Below, piece by piece: positions 17,704 to 26,576 of a DNA stretch of 64,000 nucleotides; position 1 is the stretch's first letter; every line of letters starts with the position of its first letter. Where the stretch lies: NCBI RefSeq assembly GCF_025548535.1, contig NZ_JAJLQW010000009.1, positions 1 to 64,000 on the forward strand, in the 5' to 3' direction. The notes beneath the pieces were generated by a model, which saw nothing but the letters and a program-made list of their open reading frames with translations, ran no database searches and was not told where the DNA came from. A program made the position numbers and the translations under genes. Origin of the DNA: Undibacterium sp. Jales W-56. Its GTDB lineage: Bacteria > Pseudomonadota > Gammaproteobacteria > Burkholderiales > Burkholderiaceae_D.

Positions 17704-20700
17704 TCAAGTCTTATTTGCATCTAAGGATGCGCCGGCGATCTTGCTATTACGACTGAAATAACCCTGCACTTGTCGCCCCCATTTATCTAAATAGGTATAA
17801 GCAATAGGCACAACCAGCAGCGTAAGCAAGGTCGAGGTGATAATCCCGCCGATCACGGCACGTCCCATCGGCGCTTGCGACTCCGCCCCCTCACTGAAAC
17901 CGATCGCCATCGGCAACATACCGAAAATCATCGCCAGGGTTGTCATCATGATGGGGCGCAATCTGACCTGCCCCGCCGCCAGAATTGCATCATGCTGCGA
18001 CATGCCTTGACGTTGCGATTGATTGATGAAGTCGACTAACAAAATCGCGTTCTTGGTGACCAATCCCATCAGCATGATAAAACCGATGATGGAAAAGATA
18101 TTCAGGGTGCTACCGGTAATCAATAAAGCCAGCAACACACCGATCAAAGAAAACGGCAAGGAAGTCATGATTGCCAGCGGCTGCAAAAAACTGCCGAATT
18201 GCGATGCCAGGATCAGATAAATAAAGATCACCGCGATCCCTAAAGCTGCCAGTGCGGCATTAAAAGAGTCCTGCATCTCCTTGGTCTGCCCACCCACATC
18301 GAAGCGGTAACCGGCTGGCAGCTCAATGGTTTTGACCAGATTTTGCACTTCTTTACCGACATCTCCGGCGGGCCGGCCTTCAACATTCGCATAAATCGCT
18401 GCACGACGCTGCAAGTCCTGGCGTTTAATAACCCGTGGACTGGTACCGGGAATAAATTGCACCACCTGACGCAGGGGTACCATCACGGGCATTCCCATCG
18501 CATCAAGATTGCTGCTAGCCAGAGATAAATCTGCCAGATCCGCAATCTTCTGACGGCCCGACTTCGGCAGCTGGACATTGATTTCATAATTCTGTCCATC
18601 TGGCGCCAGCCACTGACCGATATTGTCGCCCGCTACAAACGGCCGCAAGGCCGCGCCGATCTGCTGAACGGATAAACCCAGATCATTTGCCAACTCATTG
18701 TTCACCTTTACCAAGACGGTCGGGTTGGCACCGGTCAAACTACTTTCCAGGTCCGCAATACCTTTAATTGCACTTAACTTCAACATCACCTGGTCAATCA
18801 CTCCTTGTAATTTATCCGCGTCGGGTCCCAGAACTGCGACGTAAATCGGCTTATCAAATCCAACGCCGAGATCGACGCCCGGCACCGACTTCAGGCGCTT
18901 GCGGATATCTGATTCGATTTCTTTTTGTGGTTTTCTATGACTGATACGAGGCAGGGTCAGCTTCAAATTGATCTGCGCGGCATTGCGCTCCCCCTCCACG
19001 CCGACGCTGGTATTCATGGTCACGATCTCGGGCATTTCTTTCAGGATTGCCTCGACCTGCATGGTCTTTTCGTTGGTATAAGTCAGGCTGGATCCAACCG
19101 GCGTTTTGAGATTCAGTGAAATCTGGCTGTCATCCGTTTCCGGGGCAAATTCAGTGCCGATAAAAGGCAGCAGAAAAAAACTTCCCACGAAAAGTGCAAA
19201 GGTCAAAACCAGCGTCGTCTTACGTCGCCGCAATACCAATTCCAGAATACGCCCGTACAAGCTGTGCAATTGCTCGATGCCATGCTCAATCCGTTCCATC
19301 ATGCGCGCCAGCCACGGGAGGCGACTAAATCGTCCTTCAGCCGGATCGTGCCAGACCGAAGACAACATCGGATCCAAAGTAAAGCTTACGAACAGTGATA
19401 CCAGAACCGCAACTGTGACCGTGATACCGAATTGCAAAAAATACCGCCCTATCATGCCCTTCATAAATGCGACGGGTATGAATACCGCCACAATAGCGAA
19501 GGTCGTTGCCATGACGGCTAAGCCAATTTCATTGGTGCCATCTGCGGCGGCTTGCTTGTGGCCTTTTCCCATACCCAGATGGCGAACGATGTTTTCCCTG
19601 ACCACAATCGCATCATCGATTAAGAGACCAATACAAAGGGACAGCGCCATCAGGGTCATGAAATTCAAGGTAAAACCAAAGGCCTTCAAAGCGATGAACG
19701 TCGCGATGACAGAAATCGGCAAGGTCAGACCGGTAATGATGGTACTGCGCCAGGAATGCAAAAACAAAAATACAATCAGGATAGTCAATCCCGCGCCTTC
19801 GAGGATGGTTTCTTTGACGCCTTTCAATGACTGCTTCACATTGTCCGCGTTGTTGTAATTGACGTTCATGACGACATCGGCCGGCAATCTCTTTTTCAGA
19901 TCATCGAGCGCTTCCATGATGCCGTCTCCCACATCCACAATATTCGCATCCTGGATCTTGGTCACAGAGATGCTAATTGCCCGCACGCCGTTCACACGTG
20001 AAATCGAAAACTCTTCGCGTTCACCGTCTTGAATATCGGCGACCTGTTCCAGATACACGGGTGCGTTGGCGCGACGTGCGACGATAATTTTATTGAATCC
20101 GCGCGGATCCGTTATTTTTCCCTCTAAGCGCACCAGTTGATCTTTAGCGCCTTGAGTGATCAGCCCTGCCGGCATATTTTGATTGGTCGACTGGATTGCC
20201 GACAGCACCTCATTAACGCCGACATGATTGGCTGCCATGCGATCCGGATTTAACTTAACCTGCACCTGGCGCACCACAGCACCACGCACATCGACCCGAC
20301 CGACACCGGCGACACTCTGTAATTTTTTGGCGATGATCTGATCGGTCAGATTGGATAACTCGCGCAAACTTCGTTCCGATGAACGGATCGACATTTCCAC
20401 CACCGGACGTTCATTACCATCGCTGCCACCGCGCACAATGAAAGGGTCTTTCACGTCTTTCGGAAAGCCCGGGCGAATCTGCGCTACTTTGTCGCGGACT
20501 TCCTGCAACACCTTATCGGGATTCACCGACAACTGGAATTCGGTCCAGATGCCGGCACGACCTTCGTAAGAACTTGCCATGATGCGCTTCACGCCGCTGA
20601 TGGTGTTAAGTACATTCTCTACCGGCTTGGTAATGTCGTTCTCGACGATCTCAGGCGATGCCCCCGGATACTGCACTTCCATCCAGACCCCGACCGACTG

Positions 20701-20820
20701 TACGTTTGGCATCTGCTCCAGACCCAAGCCCTGGTAGGAAAACAAACCCAGTACCATCAATGCCACCATCACCATAGTGGCAAAAACAGGATTCTGAATA
20801 CTGACCTTGGTAATCCACAT
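17704..20820 (-). CDS. RND efflux pump inner-membrane permease (HAE1 family)
   Basis: 1038 residues, the normal size for AcrB-like pumps. The N-terminal helix begins 'MWITKVSIQNPVFATMVM'. Two large periplasmic loops and twelve transmembrane segments follow. The proton-relay residues are present: the Asp pair in 'GLLIDDAIVVREN' (helix 4) and the Lys in 'MGLVTKNAILLVDF' (helix 10). It should be a proton-driven trimeric exporter of hydrophobic or amphipathic compounds, and it does not have the heavy-metal (CusA-type) hallmark layout. The adaptor gene lies immediately upstream (3-base gap). No TolC-like outer-membrane factor is present, so the pump probably borrows one encoded elsewhere. Confidence 0.95.
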   Translation of the reverse strand: MWITKVSIQNPVFATMVMVALMVLGLFSYQGLGLEQMPNVQSVGVWMEVQYPGASPEIVENDITKPVENVLNTISGVKRIMASSYEGRAGIWTEFQLSVNPDKVLQEVRDKVAQIRPGFPKDVKDPFIVRGGSDGNERPVVEMSIRSSERSLRELSNLTDQIIAKKLQSVAGVGRVDVRGAVVRQVQVKLNPDRMAANHVGVNEVLSAIQSTNQNMPAGLITQGAKDQLVRLEGKITDPRGFNKIIVARRANAPVYLEQVADIQDGEREEFSISRVNGVRAISISVTKIQDANIVDVGDGIMEALDDLKKRLPADVVMNVNYNNADNVKQSLKGVKETILEGAGLTILIVFLFLHSWRSTIITGLTLPISVIATFIALKAFGFTLNFMTLMALSLCIGLLIDDAIVVRENIVRHLGMGKGHKQAAADGTNEIGLAVMATTFAIVAVFIPVAFMKGMIGRYFLQFGITVTVAVLVSLFVSFTLDPMLSSVWHDPAEGRFSRLPWLARMMERIEHGIEQLHSLYGRILELVLRRRKTTLVLTFALFVGSFFLLPFIGTEFAPETDDSQISLNLKTPVGSSLTYTNEKTMQVEAILKEMPEIVTMNTSVGVEGERNAAQINLKLTLPRISHRKPQKEIESDIRKRLKSVPGVDLGVGFDKPIYVAVLGPDADKLQGVIDQVMLKLSAIKGIADLESSLTGANPTVLVKVNNELANDLGLSVQQIGAALRPFVAGDNIGQWLAPDGQNYEINVQLPKSGRQKIADLADLSLASSNLDAMGMPVMVPLRQVVQFIPGTSPRVIKRQDLQRRAAIYANVEGRPAGDVGKEVQNLVKTIELPAGYRFDVGGQTKEMQDSFNAALAALGIAVIFIYLILASQFGSFLQPLAIMTSLPFSLIGVLLALLITGSTLNIFSIIGFIMLMGLVTKNAILLVDFINQSQRQGMSQHDAILAAGQVRLRPIMMTTLAMIFGMLPMAIGFSEGAESQAPMGRAVIGGIITSTLLTLLVVPIAYTYLDKWGRQVQGYFSRNSKIAGASLDANKT

Positions 20821-20823
20821 GGC

Positions 20824-22038
20824 TTAACCTTTGATTTTATCTGACGTCGGGTCAGCCGCGGGCACGGAGGCCACTGCCGCTTTTGGCATGCTCACCTTGC
20901 TGCCCGGCTTAATATTGCCCAGCTTGGTAGAAATAAGCTGCATGCCAGGTTCCAGTCCCTGAAGCACCTGCACCACGCCCTCATCTTCATTGCGCAAACC
21001 CAGTTTGACTGCTTGCTGCTGAATCTGATTGTTAACTATCAGGTAGACGACATCGCTGCCATTATGCTGACGTATCGCCGCTACCGGCATGACGGGTAAA
21101 GCACTGTTTTTTTCCAGCGTCAGAGCGCCTTTAGCGAACATGCCGCCTTTCAACGCACCATCTACGTTCTCTACCGCGACATACACCAGCATCGAGCGGG
21201 ATCCTGCCTCGGCGGCAGGATTAATGCGCGCGACTTTGCCGGCAAATGAGCGTGTGCCGAAACCATCGACAGAAAATTTTACGTTTTGACCGATTTTGAC
21301 GCGGGGAATTTCGCTGGAAGGAACTTGCGCCTCCAATACCAGCTGCGCGAGATTGACGATACTGAACAAAGGACTGTCCGGCGATACCTTGTCGCCCGCT
21401 TGTACGCTGCGCTTGCTGATGATGCCGTCAACTGGCGATTTAACCAGGGTATCGGCAAGCGCAAGTTGCGCGACCTCACGCTGCGAAGTCGCCGACTTCA
21501 GACTTGCCTGTGCCAGATCCAGGCTATTTTGCGTAGTATCGAACGCATTTTGCGAAATATAGTTCTGCTTCAGCAATGCTTCATTTGAATGCCGGTTTTT
21601 TTGCGCCAATGCCAGACGCGCCTGCGCCTCATCGACTGCCGCATCCTGAATATTCAAACGCGCTCGCAAATCAGCGCTGTCAAAGCGCGCAATGACTTGC
21701 CCCTTTCTGACCGGCATCCCCTCCTGCACCAGGGTTTCATGCACTTCCGCAGCCACCTTTGCGCGTACTGTCGTCTGACTTACCGGCATCAGGGAACCGG
21801 AGATCGGCAAATTCAGGCTTAATTCGCGGGCCGCCACTTTAATGACATCGACAGCCGCCAATTCATATACCGGCTCTTTTTTAGCATTCGCCTTTTCGTC
21901 CGCTTTGGCCTGCCCGGTGGTTGCCTTGGCATACATCATCCAGCCGCCACCGGCAGCCAGGGCGACGAGCAGGCCCAGCACAGGCAAACGCCAACGTCGT
22001 TGTGACATTGAAGACAAAATGGGAGTGTCTATTTTCAT
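20824..22038 (-). CDS. RND efflux periplasmic adaptor (membrane fusion protein)
   Basis: 404 residues. An N-terminal membrane anchor covers about 15-33. A beta-barrel and lipoyl half-motif follow ('VRAKVAAEVHETLVQEGMPV'), then a coiled-coil hairpin ('DAAVDEAQARLALAQKN...'), the second lipoyl half ('DTLVKSPVDGIISKRSVQ'), and a C-terminal beta-barrel ('NAEVP..'-like region through 'VVQVLQGLEPGMQLI'). It bridges the permease and an outer-membrane channel. It is first in a two-gene operon, with its stop three bases before the permease start. The leader contains no recognised repressor gene or operator. Confidence 0.93.
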   Translation of the reverse strand: MKIDTPILSSMSQRRWRLPVLGLLVALAAGGGWMMYAKATTGQAKADEKANAKKEPVYELAAVDVIKVAARELSLNLPISGSLMPVSQTTVRAKVAAEVHETLVQEGMPVRKGQVIARFDSADLRARLNIQDAAVDEAQARLALAQKNRHSNEALLKQNYISQNAFDTTQNSLDLAQASLKSATSQREVAQLALADTLVKSPVDGIISKRSVQAGDKVSPDSPLFSIVNLAQLVLEAQVPSSEIPRVKIGQNVKFSVDGFGTRSFAGKVARINPAAEAGSRSMLVYVAVENVDGALKGGMFAKGALTLEKNSALPVMPVAAIRQHNGSDVVYLIVNNQIQQQAVKLGLRNEDEGVVQVLQGLEPGMQLISTKLGNIKPGSKVSMPKAAVASVPAADPTSDKIKG

Positions 22039-22437: not shown

Positions 22438-22902
22438 TTACGATCTGGCAGTTGCTTTGATCCAGTTATCCAGCGAAATTTTTCCCGCGCCAAACACCAG
22501 CAAAACCAGGAGCAACAATCCCCAATACAAATGGTCGTTGATCGCCGCTGGACATTCAAATTTCCAGAGTTGCGGATACGAAATCACGGCCATCGCATTC
22601 ACCGCGAAAAGACCGAGGGCCGCGGGTCGTGAGAATAATCCTGTGATCAGCAGCAATGGAAAAAATAATTCTCCGCCGGCCCCCATTACGGCAGCCAGTT
22701 CAGGTGGGAGTAATGGGACGGTGTATTCCTCGCGGAACAATGAGAGCGTTCCTTCCCAGTCGCGGATTTTTATTAAACCCGCTTTAAAAAATTGCCAGCC
22801 TACAAAAATACGCAGCCCCAGATTAAGCAAAGCACCGCCCCACTCTTGCAGCGCTCCATCAAATCGAGTCGTCAGTTGATGTAAGCGTAAAAATTGATTC
22901 AT
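22438..22902 (-). CDS. DoxX family membrane protein, bufferin-locus type
   Basis: 154 residues, four hydrophobic segments, the DoxX layout: 'LNLGLRIFVGWQFFKAGLIKI' is the conserved first helix with its Arg and Gly, followed by 'GELFFPLLLITGLFSRPAALGLFAVN'. A family member with this signature is the fourth gene of the gigABCD and related DUF2282-DUF692-DUF2063 operons. Here it lies on the same strand just downstream of the DUF2063 gene but is separated from it by a 209-base MITE-like element. Its biochemical role in the locus is unsettled; membrane redox partner is the usual suggestion. The gene itself looks intact. Confidence 0.88.
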   Translation of the reverse strand: MNQFLRLHQLTTRFDGALQEWGGALLNLGLRIFVGWQFFKAGLIKIRDWEGTLSLFREEYTVPLLPPELAAVMGAGGELFFPLLLITGLFSRPAALGLFAVNAMAVISYPQLWKFECPAAINDHLYWGLLLLVLLVFGAGKISLDNWIKATARS

Positions 22903-22926
22903 ATTCTTCTCCGTTATTGTGATGTG

Positions 22927-23135
22927 TAGGATTTACGCAAAACAGAACACTGCTTGCCGCGATCTGCATTGAACCCGCAGGCTGGATGCGGCTTTCCGGG
23001 CCATTTCGTGCCGACAGGCGCATCCAGCTTGCGGGTTCGTTTCATATCGGCATTCCATGAAGTTGCTTACTCTTGTTCTTCCTCTGTGTCTCCGTGTCTC
23101 GGTAGTGAGAGGTTTTGGTTTTTGCGTAAGTCCTA
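22927..23135. mobile_element. MITE-like element with TA-flanked terminal inverted repeats
   Basis: Ends are GGATTTACGCAAAAC (22929) and the inverse of GGACTTACGCAAAAA (ending 23133), matching at 13 of 15 positions. Each end is flanked by TA, as in IS630/Tc1-type target duplication. Inside is a 20-base stem (22971-22990 with 23019-23038, 19 of 20 matched) around a 28-base loop. No reading frame of transposase size fits in 209 bases, so it could only move by a transposase supplied in trans. It sits between the DUF2063 gene and DoxX, so it interrupts what is a contiguous operon in relatives. Confidence 0.68.
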
Positions 23136-23167
23136 ACTAGGTATGAGTCGAAGTGGGTAGGCGTTTC

Positions 23168-23989
23168 TTACATTGTATGTTGGCTCATTTCGGTAGCGCA
23201 AAATAATTCCCATTGAAACCATTGCTGGAGCTGTTCGGTAATCTGAAATTCAGCATCGCATTCAACAGCAAGCTCCAGGGCTTGCCCTACATTCGCCCCT
23301 TTAGATAAAGCATCCAGGGCCAGGTAGCAAGCCGTATCGATGATGCGGACAGCGGGCATCCAATGCTGCCGGTGAATCAGCATGTGATTTTTACGGTGAA
23401 TCTCGGCAGGGAAATGCACCTCACCGAGATGCTGATGCGCAAGCCAGATTTCGGCGCTCGCCCAGTCGGAGACGATTAATTTGCAGGCAGGATTTAAGTG
23501 TAAATGGGCTTCAGAAAACTGCATCCCGGACTGGCCGATGAGTTCAGGCAAAGTCAGTGCCGGTTTGTTCTCTGCATAGTATGTCTGATGAACCTGCCAC
23601 TCCAGCCTCGCCACCTCAGAGAAATAAGGATAATCGGTGCAAACGCCGAATTCTTCCTCCTCCAAAAAAGTCGCCAGAAAAAATCCGAACTCGTTCAGGT
23701 CTCCCGACGGCGAAGGGTAGCGTCGGCCGTATTCTCTAGCCATCTGCTGGAAGAATTCCGCACCGACCAATTGATACAGAACCGGGTAGGCGTTTTTGAG
23801 AGCCTGGTTCCAGATTGCAGTCAGGTTGCCGCGATAAGTCGCGAATCGCGCTTTCGCCTGCTGAGATTTGGCGCTAAACATGGTTAATTCGGCGGCGTCA
23901 ACTGCCGGAGCTAATAGCTGCTCGGAAAAGCGTAATTGCAGTTCGGCCAGCGTATCTATATTGAGCGAAGAGAGGTGACTGCCGGTCAT
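23168..23989 (-). CDS. bufC: DUF2063 protein, bufferin maturation partner (HvfC/BufC/GigC type)
   Basis: 273 residues. The N-terminal DUF2063 domain shows '[55 protein letters not shown]', quoted here only by its landmarks: 'RFATYRGN', '[10 protein letters not shown]' and '[10 protein letters not shown]'. The C-terminal half contains a WD..HLE-like '[12 protein letters not shown]' helix. In studied loci this protein partners the DUF692 enzyme and helps recognise the precursor peptide; it has no catalytic motif of its own. Its start overlaps the DUF692 stop by four bases (ATGA), indicating translational coupling and a stable pair. Family name as 'DNA-binding' in older annotations has no support here. 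Confidence 0.9.
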
Positions 23990-24852
23990 ACAGGCACCTT
24001 GCCAGCAGTCCGGTATTGCGCCGCTTTAAGCGCCTCGGCCAGCAGCACCGGCAAGGCGGGAATATCCGTATCCCATTCAAGCAACACCGGAATATCGGCG
24101 CCGAACAAGGCACAGGTCTTTTCATACAACGCCCAGACCTGGGGAGCAACTGTGCAGCCGTGATGATCGATCAGGCAATCGTCGCTCTGCAGATGTCCAG
24201 CCAGATGAATTTCGCGTATCACACCAGCCGGAAGATGCGCAAATTCCGCCAATGCGGCTTCGGCGCTCTCGCCATGATTATGCTGATTGACAAAGAGATT
24301 ATTGACATCCAGTAAAATGCCGCAACCTGTGCGACGCGCAAGCTCAACCAGGAACGCTGCCTCAGACATTTCATCTTCGGCAAACCGCAGGTAGGTTGAT
24401 ACGTTTTCAATTAAGACGGATCGTTGCAACACGGTCTGTAACTGATCGACACGTTGACACATCAAGCTCAAGGCATCTTGTCTTAACGGCAGCGGCAACA
24501 AATCGTTCAGGTGACGCCCTGCAATAGCGCCCCAGCACAGATGTTCTGACACCAGAGCAGGCTGTATTCGCTGCACCAGATTTTTCAGTTTATGCAAATG
24601 GCTTTCGTTAAAGCCTTGCGCTGAACCCAAGCCCAGACCCACACCATGCAAGCTGATGGGATAATCCTGGCGTAGTGTCTGCAACACATGCAGATCGTAA
24701 CCACCATCGCCAAAATAATTTTCTGAATGAACCTCCAGCCAATCTATCTCAATCGATGCATTCAGAAAATCGCGGTAATGCTGGCTGCGCAAACCGATCC
24801 CGACGCCAAGCCCAGGACCGGTTTGATGCATTGAGTCAAAAGTAGCGCTCAA
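23986..24852 (-). CDS. bufB: DUF692 iron-dependent peptide maturase (HvfB/BufB/GigB, MbnB-like)
   Basis: 288 residues, a TIM-barrel of the MbnB/DUF692 family. Metal and active-site landmarks: 'HSENYFGD' (42-49), '[10 protein letters not shown]' (67-76), 'SEHLCW' (102-107), 'ENVSTY' (149-154), '[15 protein letters not shown]' (180-194), 'EIHLAGH' (214-220), 'DHHG' (229-232) and 'EWDTDIP' (259-265). The family uses two or three iron ions to oxidise cysteine side chains of a precursor peptide into heterocycles. The precursor gene lies 16 bases upstream and the partner protein overlaps the stop, so this is a complete maturation set. The expected product is a copper-binding modified peptide. Identity is strong; product chemistry is inferred from studied relatives. 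Confidence 0.93.
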
Positions 24853-24868
24853 TTAATCTCTTGGCCAA

Positions 24869-25117
24869 TTAAGCTTTATCCAGCTTGCCGCCCATTTTTT
24901 CGCAAGTACCGGCGGGGACTTTTTTCCATTCATTGGCATCCATGTCCTTCTTGCCTTGACCTGCGCAAGAATGAGAGCCTGTCTTGGTTGCGCAATCGTT
25001 TTGACCGGCTTTGGCGATGCCAAAACATTTTTCTGTTTTTGCCGGCTCTGCTGCCAATGCGACCGTGGAACCGACCAAACTTGCCAATGCAACTGCAATC
25101 AATGCCTTGTTATTCAT
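24869..25117 (-). CDS. bufA: DUF2282 bufferin precursor peptide (HvfA/BufA/GigA type)
   Basis: 82 residues. Signal peptide '[22 protein letters not shown]' then a short core with four cysteines at 31, 42, 51 and 72. The spacing and words match the family: '[16 protein letters not shown]' then 'SHSCAGQ' and finally 'VPAGTCEK'. The precursor is exported to the periplasm after modification by the DUF692/DUF2063 pair; in studied bufferins two Cys become thiooxazoles and the other two form a disulphide. AGGAGA stands five bases before ATG, a strong site. The leader has an ECF-sigma-like promoter about 66 bases upstream. The expected role is periplasmic copper (and other soft-metal) buffering. A different frame over the same DNA gives a peptide with no conserved features and is not real. 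Confidence 0.93.
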
Positions 25118-25183
25118 GTTTATCTCCTGATAAATTTAAAGAAAGACTCGTAAAAAAGTTTAATAAAAATCACTTACGATCAA

Positions 25184-25211
25184 TAGTCGGGCAAAGCCAG
25201 GATACCTTACA
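25184..25211 (-). promoter_or_regulatory. ECF-sigma-like promoter of the bufferin operon
   Basis: On the minus strand TGTAAG, 16 bases, CGACTA: the spacing and the CGAC/CGTC -10 pattern are those of extracytoplasmic-function sigma factors. Several DUF2282 loci in other proteobacteria are under such sigma factors. The start codon lies about 66 bases downstream. No sigma or anti-sigma gene is in the window. This is inference from one site. Confidence 0.45.
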
Positions 25212-25789: not shown

Positions 25790-26209
25790 TTACGCAGGCT
25801 GAGTCGCCAGACTCGCGGCTTCACTGGTCATAAAGCGCGCCAGCATATTGTCCATGGTATCGACATGATGCTCGAACCATAGTGGCAGTTCTTCCGCCAA
25901 GCGTGGTGCCAGATCCAGCTCCCCCGCTTCGACGATCCTGCGGCGCACTTCACGCATCACCTGCAAGACCGCATCATGTTCCGTCATATGACAACCGGCC
26001 GGTGGAAAAGAATGACTGTTCATCCATTGATTCTCTTGCTCAAAATGCTCTACAGAATGTGCTATCAAGGCGTCCAGCCTGGCGATAAAAGTAGCCGGAT
26101 TATCTTCAGACAGCGCGGCGCATAGGATCACGAACTCCTGATGCGTCTCATCCATGGGCGCGTACTGCAATTTCAATCGATCTGACCATCCCCAGTTGGC
26201 ATCGCTCAT
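25790..26209 (-). CDS. Bacteriohemerythrin
   Basis: 139 residues, a four-helix hemerythrin domain. The di-iron ligands are visible in order: His in 'DETHQEF', His and Glu in 'HSVEHFEQENQWM', His in 'CHMTEHDAVL', and the His/Asp set in 'WFEHHVDTMDN'. It should bind oxygen reversibly at a di-iron centre, as storage, sensing or delivery to oxygen-using enzymes. The N-terminus 'WGWSDRLKLQYAPMDETH' matches the single-domain bacteriohemerythrins. It is a single gene with its own ribosome site (AAAGGAGCC) before the ATG. Confidence 0.92.
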   Translation of the reverse strand: MSDANWGWSDRLKLQYAPMDETHQEFVILCAALSEDNPATFIARLDALIAHSVEHFEQENQWMNSHSFPPAGCHMTEHDAVLQVMREVRRRIVEAGELDLAPRLAEELPLWFEHHVDTMDNMLARFMTSEAASLATQPA

Positions 26210-26375: not shown

Positions 26376-26576
26376 CTAGGCGGTCGTATTGATATTTCTT
26401 CCGAGATTTGGCGGTAAATTCGATATCGCCTTATTATCTGGAATCGCTTCGATCAATGCGGTCGCGCTCTCTGCGCTGACATCCAATGCTTTTTTCAGAA
26501 CGGCAACACTGACTTCCTGGCTAACGCCCACATCTGCCAAAGTTGTTGATACGCTGGCAATTCCTGTAATATCCAT
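26376..26576 (-). CDS. YjfB family putative motility protein
   Basis: 66 residues matching the YjfB family: 'MDITGIASVSTTLADVGVSQEVSVAVLKKALDVSAESATALIEAIP', recognised by its 'ALDVSAESA' centre and Ala/Val/Ser-rich helical N-terminus. Family members are small, often found with flagellar or motility genes and have no established biochemical role. Here no flagellar gene is near. It ends at a strong terminator and starts 27 bases before the mobB stop region on the same strand, so co-transcription with mobB is possible. Confidence 0.82.
   Translation of the reverse strand: MDITGIASVSTTLADVGVSQEVSVAVLKKALDVSAESATALIEAIPDNKAISNLPPNLGRNINTTA

Follow-up and report, generated by a model that had tools for sequence, protein, structure and literature searches.

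A Buf1-type bufferin locus in Undibacterium and a conserved promoter-like word that may link it to methionine-sulfoxide repair

The window analyzed here, a 64,000-nucleotide stretch of the genome of Undibacterium sp. Jales W-56 (contig NZ_JAJLQW010000009.1, positions 1 to 64,000), contains the locus bufA1-bufB-bufC-doxX, with all four genes on the minus strand. The locus is a complete, ordinary Buf1 set and as such adds one bufferin to the thousands known. It is preceded by a conserved word, TGTAAG-N16-CGACTA, which is probably a promoter read by an extracytoplasmic function (ECF) sigma factor, and which recurs before genes for methionine sulfoxide reductases and, with one mismatch, before doxX. 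We infer from these positions that an ECF-sigma regulon joins the bufferin, methionine-sulfoxide repair and DoxX. Taken as a whole, the explanation of the locus as a Buf1-type bufferin system with ECF-driven transcription has, in our estimate, a probability of roughly 0.8.

The bufferin-1 locus and its predicted product

The first gene, bufA1 (24869..25117; all such coordinates refer to the window), codes for an 82-residue DUF2282 bufferin-1 precursor (PF10048, 85.4 bits versus a cut-off of 22.4, E 2.5e-24). It is followed by bufB (23986..24852), coding for a 288-residue DUF692/MNIO maturase with a TTG start (PF05114, 330.7 bits versus 25), bufC (23168..23989), coding for a 273-residue DUF2063 partner of PME type 1 (PF09836, 65.1 bits versus 27.2), and doxX (22438..22902), coding for a 154-residue membrane protein of the gigT/hvfX type (PF07681, 60.4 bits versus 23.6); bufB and bufC overlap by 4 nt (ATGA). 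The initial annotation, made from the sequence letters alone, was correct in its coordinates, open reading frames (ORFs), cysteine positions, cysteine words and ATGA overlap, and the profile search that it proposed placed DUF2282, DUF692 and DUF2063, and likewise DoxX, above their Pfam cut-offs. The gene order is the canonical one of Buf1 loci. This arrangement is not one of chance, because the A-B-C order, often with doxX added, recurs in most of 110 compared loci (two overlapping sets, many of them fetched through a BufB match); the precursor lies elsewhere in three of the exceptions (L111, L128, L145) and none is visible in two (L097, L146).

All four cysteines of BufA1 (31, 42, 51 and 72, in the words EKC, NDCA, HSCAGQ and GTCEK) are invariant in the 26 of 26 precursors of a hand-chosen alignment, and the hydrophobic start with ALA before A23 points, as judged by eye, to a probable Sec signal peptide. 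The accessible parts of the papers cited here describe Buf1 precursors as having a Sec signal peptide and four cysteines, with the central two converted to thiooxazoles and the outer two joined in a disulfide; every characterized MNIO-PME1 product bears 5-thiooxazoles, and these products generally bind copper (PMC12452194, PMC13097082, PMC13419390). The background given in the initial annotation, that cysteines are turned into thiooxazoles, needs correcting on this point: by homology, the change would concern Cys42 and Cys51, with the outer pair joined in the disulfide. The 82-residue precursor has no EGKCG repeats and so does not belong to the oxazolin/EGKCG captophorin type found in hvf, fon and ngo.

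BufB passes the NCBIfam BufB equivalog model NF050167 (357 bits versus a cut-off of 310), which identifies it as a BufB-type MNIO, and is related to PDB entry 3bww and to MbnB; it falls far below the methanobactin-type model TIGR04159 (45 bits versus 325). Nine of its residues (H69, H104, E149, D182, N185, H216, D229, H231 and E259) align with 3bww. The first six are kept in 110 of 110 loci, D229 and H231 in 109 of 109, and E259 in 108 of 108; in our reading they are candidate metal ligands. Thus, the loss of DUF692 metal ligands on alignment, which would have spoken against the bufferin assignment, was not seen for these candidate residues. We take N185, D229 and H231 as the counterparts of HvfB N175, D242 and H244, which are reported to be essential (PMC13419390). 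A sequence search of BufC against the PDB gave no match up to E 1; a Foldseek search with its predicted structure (mean predicted local distance difference test score, pLDDT, 90) then matched 8hi7_A, a chain of the TglHI complex that we take to be the partner TglI (E 5.8e-06), and NGO1945 (3dee; E 2.9e-03). Together with the PF09836 match, this marks BufC as a DUF2063 partner with a fold like that of the RiPP recognition element (RRE).

On the model of published homologues, from which the modification, disulfide, export and copper binding are taken, BufA1 would be made with its signal peptide and be presented by BufC to the iron enzyme BufB, which would oxidize Cys42 and Cys51 to 5-thiooxazoles in the cytoplasm. 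The modified peptide would then be exported by Sec and form the Cys31-Cys72 disulfide, giving a product of about 6.2 kDa that may bind surplus periplasmic copper, with DoxX as a putative accessory membrane protein. For cleavage ahead of A23, the calculated monoisotopic mass is 6224.96 Da for the reduced peptide before modification and 6214.88 Da for the form with two thiooxazoles and the disulfide. A periplasmic metal-buffering modified peptide, as the initial annotation had it, is thus supported to the extent implied by Buf1 family membership (PMC12452194).

Profile searches of the genome found one DUF2282 match and two DUF692 matches. The second DUF692 gene (C16:189 kb) lies in a further bufferin locus, of BufA2 type (C16:187-190 kb; L188 3470-6442), with a BufA2 precursor ahead of it (100.9 bits versus a cut-off of 60) and a DUF2063 gene behind. 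An EamA-family transporter gene stands behind bufC2 in that locus, and an ECF sigma/anti-sigma pair lies about 12 kb off; a dmt gene is reported between msrAB and rpoE2 in Haemophilus influenzae (PMC7907618). Around the buf genes of the window itself, a putative motility protein of YjfB type (26376-26576) and a protein with a hemerythrin domain (25790-26209) are encoded upstream (profile match), and genes for an RND-family permease and adaptor follow doxX on the same strand (17704-22038). The permease stays under the listed NCBIfam cut-offs and the adaptor passes the general RND adaptor model only; we saw no sign that these two genes belong to the buf unit.

A promoter-like word before bufA1 and its co-targets

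The word TGTAAG-N16-CGACTA (25184..25211, minus strand) was obtained from an alignment of bufA1 upstream regions and lies 66 nt before the bufA1 ATG. Within the genus, it stands exactly, within 400 nt of bufA1, in 23 of 30 loci, at 57-139 nt from the start codon in 22 of these and at 327 nt in one; a version with N17 spacing is found in L056, and one with N17 and a mismatch in L057. Among named loci, a set comprising the best 80 of 196, partly overlapping the genus loci and uncorrected for shared ancestry, the degenerate form [TG]GTAA[GC]-N15-18-CG[ATG]C occurs within 300 nt upstream of bufA in 33 of the 76 usable members versus 1 of 76 for the reversed control. Thirteen of the 33 (in L071-L085) are mostly from Undibacterium, and the rest include Massilia, Pseudoduganella, Janthinobacterium, Herbaspirillum and Cupriavidus, with C. 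pinatubonensis (L113) showing the N17 spacing. A literature search of titles and abstract openings, with most subscription journals outside it, found no report of this promoter in Oxalobacteraceae.

The alternative that a DNA-binding regulator recognizes the word, which would then not be an ECF promoter, appears improbable to us. By hand count, 15 of the 23 distinct Undibacterium bufA1 sequences do have an ACTAY-N5-GTAGT dyad across the -10-like element, but the window's own copy has no such dyad, and neither have the displayed copies before msrA and doxX. Further, the two non-palindromic parts of the word keep a constant spacing of 16-17 nt and stand, in 22 of 23 exact cases, 57-139 nt from the start codon, in the form of the published sigmaF and sigmaE promoters. 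An ECF promoter remains our preferred reading of the word. The further conserved block that forms this dyad is GTAAG in the window (25173..25177, minus strand), at a distance of exactly 6 nt downstream of the -10-like element; as GTA(A/G), it is present at this distance in 20 of the 23 Undibacterium sequences and in 0 of 18 from other loci, and is possibly an operator or leader element.

The exact word occurs four times in the genome of the strain: before bufA1, before msrA, before the genes of two paired AhpC/TSA-fold proteins and, at a distance of 322 nt, before a gene for a DUF7482 protein. The msrP gene (NCBIfam MsrP, 487 versus 207 bits; recognized post hoc) has a one-mismatch word about 107 nt upstream, and bufA2 a variant, found by eye, with N17 and CGACTG. 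There are 13 one-mismatch sites in the genome, one of which is the doxX word; the ORFs behind eight others were viewed, and these comprise msrP, a transglycosylase-domain gene 203 nt on, and others that form no clear co-target. Across 37 genomes we counted 36 exact sites, of which 31 were read: 13 stand before bufA1, three before msrA, two each before bufA2, doxX and YHS-domain genes, and one each before genes for a DUF1223 protein, a thioredoxin, a SoxA/TsdA-type cytochrome c and a DUF7482 protein. Profiles identified the YHS, DUF1223, thioredoxin and cytochrome targets and one msrA, and some others were identified by eye.

Methionine sulfoxide reductase genes as co-targets could be examined independently of the motif search, with the msrA orthologues fetched by protein (the 20 best of the genus, with at least 67% identity). 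The word is found upstream within one mismatch in nine of these 20, the strain's own copy being exact, and within two mismatches in 13. In comparison, of 20,000 random 206-nt windows of the fetched msrA loci, real sites included, 243 (1.2%) hold a word that close. Leaving aside the three orthologues already known from the motif search (own, G004 and G020), the count is six of 17. This test covered 23 genus genomes, with G023-G035 and second msrA copies outside its scope; an orthologue of 40% identity (G016) has four mismatches, and G019 and G022 yielded no locus.

The sharing of the word by msrA, msrP and the thioredoxin-like pair bears on what the peptide is for. It might serve mainly against another stress, such as gold, chromate, hypochlorite or other oxidants, as a redox or soft-metal scavenger made together with Msr enzymes and redoxins; chromate and cadmium elicit a response of the Caulobacter operon (PMC3511200), and hypochlorite one of the H. 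influenzae cluster (PMC7907618). Against this, Buf1 of Caulobacter is reported to bind copper and to enhance growth in its presence (PMC12452194), and the gig operon of Cupriavidus metallidurans is copper-induced (PMC10304878). We regard such a predominantly non-copper role as rather unlikely; the two roles are in any case compatible.

The doxX leader and its repeat element

A second promoter-like word, TGTAAG-N16-CGACTC (23145..23172, minus strand; one mismatch), overlaps the bufC stop codon and faces doxX. Of the 21 loci with an adjacent doxX, 11 have the word, within one mismatch, in their bufC-doxX interval, a count that stands without a separate shuffle control. In seven relatives the TAA of the word serves as the bufC stop codon, as it does in the window. 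By the scheme favored here, the ECF sigma factor at TGTAAG-N16-CGACTA would drive bufA1, the second copy at the bufC stop codon would serve doxX, and the regulon would be common to bufferin, methionine-sulfoxide repair and thioredoxin-like genes.

The presence of the word before bufA also goes with an adjacent doxX. Among the named loci, both are present in 26, the word alone in two, doxX alone in 19 and neither in 19 (Fisher p 1.8e-4), with 14 of the 80 dropped for contig ends, missing hits or short upstream regions. The same four classes number 18, 0, 2 and 5 in the 30 genus loci, five being dropped; the two with doxX alone (L043 and L057) count as lacking the word solely through the 327-nt distance and one mismatch, respectively. 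A post hoc subset of the named loci (24, 2, 2 and 14) was not relied on.

Nine nucleotides after the -10-like element of the second word, the doxX leader is occupied by a 209-bp element (22927..23135) with 16-bp terminal inverted repeats, resembling a miniature inverted-repeat transposable element (MITE). Its insertion accounts for the bufC-doxX gap of 265 nt, versus 51-141 nt in the 11 relatives with the leader word; the initial annotation mentioned neither this element nor the two promoter-like words. The element is found at 39 other places in the genome (40 further matches, one being the opposite strand of another copy), as counted from 40 scored of 157 candidates. It is absent from the bufC-doxX interval of all 21 relatives with an adjacent doxX, and in L042 a 73% fragment lies on the far side of doxX. 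When folded as RNA, the element greatly surpasses shuffled sequences (z -6.6). The repeat family measures 205-210 bp, with the ends TAGGAYTTACGCAAAA and an inner 37-nt hairpin; eight copies were inspected and seven parsed, and a clear flanking duplication (TCTAA) was seen only at L010.

Since the repeat stands between doxX and its promoter-like word, one might suppose the locus to be decaying or non-functional in this strain. We consider this highly improbable: the four reading frames are open, the element spares the doxX ribosome site and start, and the BufB residues are conserved.

Candidate sigma factor, known systems and significance

The genome has 13 Sigma70_r2 matches. One of these belongs to an ECF sigma gene (C16:175966-176532) followed by a gene for a 70-residue protein with a zf-HC2 domain and a C..H-x3-C-x2-C pattern, which passes the NCBIfam antisigmaE model (69 versus 50 bits). 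This combination of an ECF sigma factor and a small zinc-binding anti-sigma (ZAS) protein is present in 20 of 24 loci read (30 fetched), and orthologues of the sigma factor (E < 1e-60) are found in 32 of 36 genus genomes, the strain's own included. Two of the four genomes without it are incomplete (G007, 65%; G008, 73%), and the other two, G027 and G033, are complete and also lack the word and an adjacent doxX. The sigma factor of this pair is a plausible candidate reader of the word. Inside the sigma gene, near its 3' end and 107 nt before the anti-sigma gene, there is a one-mismatch word with a Neisseria-like CGTCTA (C16:176043-176070). Autoregulation of the sigma gene was considered and rejected, there being no word at its start in any of the 24 loci.

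The choice of this sigma factor is not exclusive because a zinc-finger protein (219 residues; zf-HC2, 24.9 versus 22.2 bits) likewise follows another, at C14:103965, and the pairing with the C16 gene draws on its small anti-sigma and its absence from two genomes. Hence, that one of the other ECF sigma factors reads the word is a possibility to be taken seriously, if one that we do not favor: the 219-residue protein is far under the NCBIfam anti-sigma cut-off (25.7 versus 100), whereas its 70-residue counterpart passes the antisigmaE model, and the co-absence in G027 and G033 points to the C16 gene. What adjoins the other sigma genes was assessed by visual inspection. For the explanation as a whole, the msrP target in its favor is about offset by two points against it, the C14 zinc-finger protein and the counts of the reversed word.

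Several observations weigh against the explanation as a whole. At the level of families, BufA1 matches no NCBIfam equivalog (BufA2 model, 28.5 bits versus 60) and its structure model is poor (pLDDT 58) and was not used, BufC is under the HvfC cut-off (26 versus 142 bits), and DoxX, at 54 bits, is below the cut-off of 80 for NF050144 (HvfX family). With respect to the word, five of the 30 genus loci (L058-L061 and L070) lack it before bufA1, three of them in genomes with the sigma factor (G003, G012 and G029), and G008 has the word with no sigma factor found. The interval that starts 350 nt ahead of the C16-type sigma gene and extends 200 nt inside it has no word in any of the 24 loci read (six of the 30 fetched being unparsed). 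Four of the 31 exact sites read have no ORF in place, and one overlaps an unrecognized ORF. While the exact word is found four times in the strain's genome versus 0 for its reverse, it occurs 32 versus 42 times over 23 genus genomes, and with one mismatch 17 versus 32 times in the strain's own. Genome-wide enrichment was therefore rejected as evidence and only the positions of the word count; the relatives share ancestry, and these counts are not independent. Lastly, msrA in Caulobacter is reported to be independent of sigmaF (PMC3511200).

Among known systems, the closest in gene content is the bufferin-1 operon of Caulobacter vibrioides (CC3254-CC3257), which has a DUF2282 precursor with four cysteines, DUF692, DUF2063 and DoxX in the same order (PMC3511200, PMC12452194). 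There, sigmaF acts at GTAACC-N16-CGAA to transcribe the two buf operons along with a YedY (MsrP-type) gene, so that the N16 spacing and the msrP-type target are likewise shared (PMC3511200). The difference lies in the word itself and in the membrane anti-sigma NrsF of the Caulobacter SigF; control of this type was rejected here, the genome having no PF06532 match while the Caulobacter control was positive. The gigPABT operon of C. metallidurans has the same four genes, is induced by copper and gold and is divergent from the ECF sigma gene rpoQ, whereas no sigma gene adjoins the Undibacterium locus; the accessible part of that report identifies no gig promoter (PMC10304878).

The genes under RpoE2 control in H. 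influenzae include msrAB and a DoxX/UPF0276/DUF2063 cluster (PMC7907618), which we equate with hvf, a name that does not appear in the accessible text of that paper. The RpoE2-HrsE system resembles the one proposed here in its MNIO, DUF2063 and DoxX-like genes, in the methionine sulfoxide reductase of its regulon and in its small anti-sigma, but differs in its precursor, HvfA, which belongs to the EGKCG/oxazolin family and not to DUF2282 (PMC12452194). The initial claim that the same four families occur in gig, hvf and Caulobacter therefore needs amending for Haemophilus hvf, which shares three of the four. The sigmaE-MseR system of Neisseria meningitidis likewise has a ZAS anti-sigma beside the sigma factor and an msrAB and a doxX operon as targets (PMC2893595). 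Its word is GTMAGBWTT-N12/13-CGTCTAAH, with GTMAG as the -35 and CGTCTA as the -10 element (PMC2893595); here, in contrast, the -10 is CGACTA, and the sigma gene lies outside the doxX operon with no word upstream. The idea of a methanotroph supplying copper to particulate methane monooxygenase was dropped, as the named relatives are Undibacterium; PF02461 had no match in the genome, but its controls were silent too, so that this shows no absence.

What these results add is a probable stress-type promoter, common to the bufferin and to oxidative-repair genes, through which these may be turned on together. Extended to the Oxalobacteraceae and their neighbors, this leads to a broader proposition that we hold to be evenly balanced between right and wrong. 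By it, a zinc-thiol-sensing ECF regulon would have the bufferin locus as one of its branches and would tie a copper-binding thiooxazole peptide to the repair of methionine and thiols, through msrA, msrP and thioredoxin-like proteins, and to DoxX, with doxX served by a promoter at the bufC stop codon. Regulation would divide Buf1 loci into two types, as doxX accompanies nearly all that have the promoter and about half of those that lack it, and the MITE would have made the doxX leader of this strain a long folded RNA. As no promoter of the gig operon was found in the accessible part of PMC10304878, work on this promoter is useful: the conserved word and the named co-targets make the control of the betaproteobacterial gig operon directly testable. 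The shared promoter suggests that bufferins may belong, beyond copper resistance, to the periplasmic response to redox damage.

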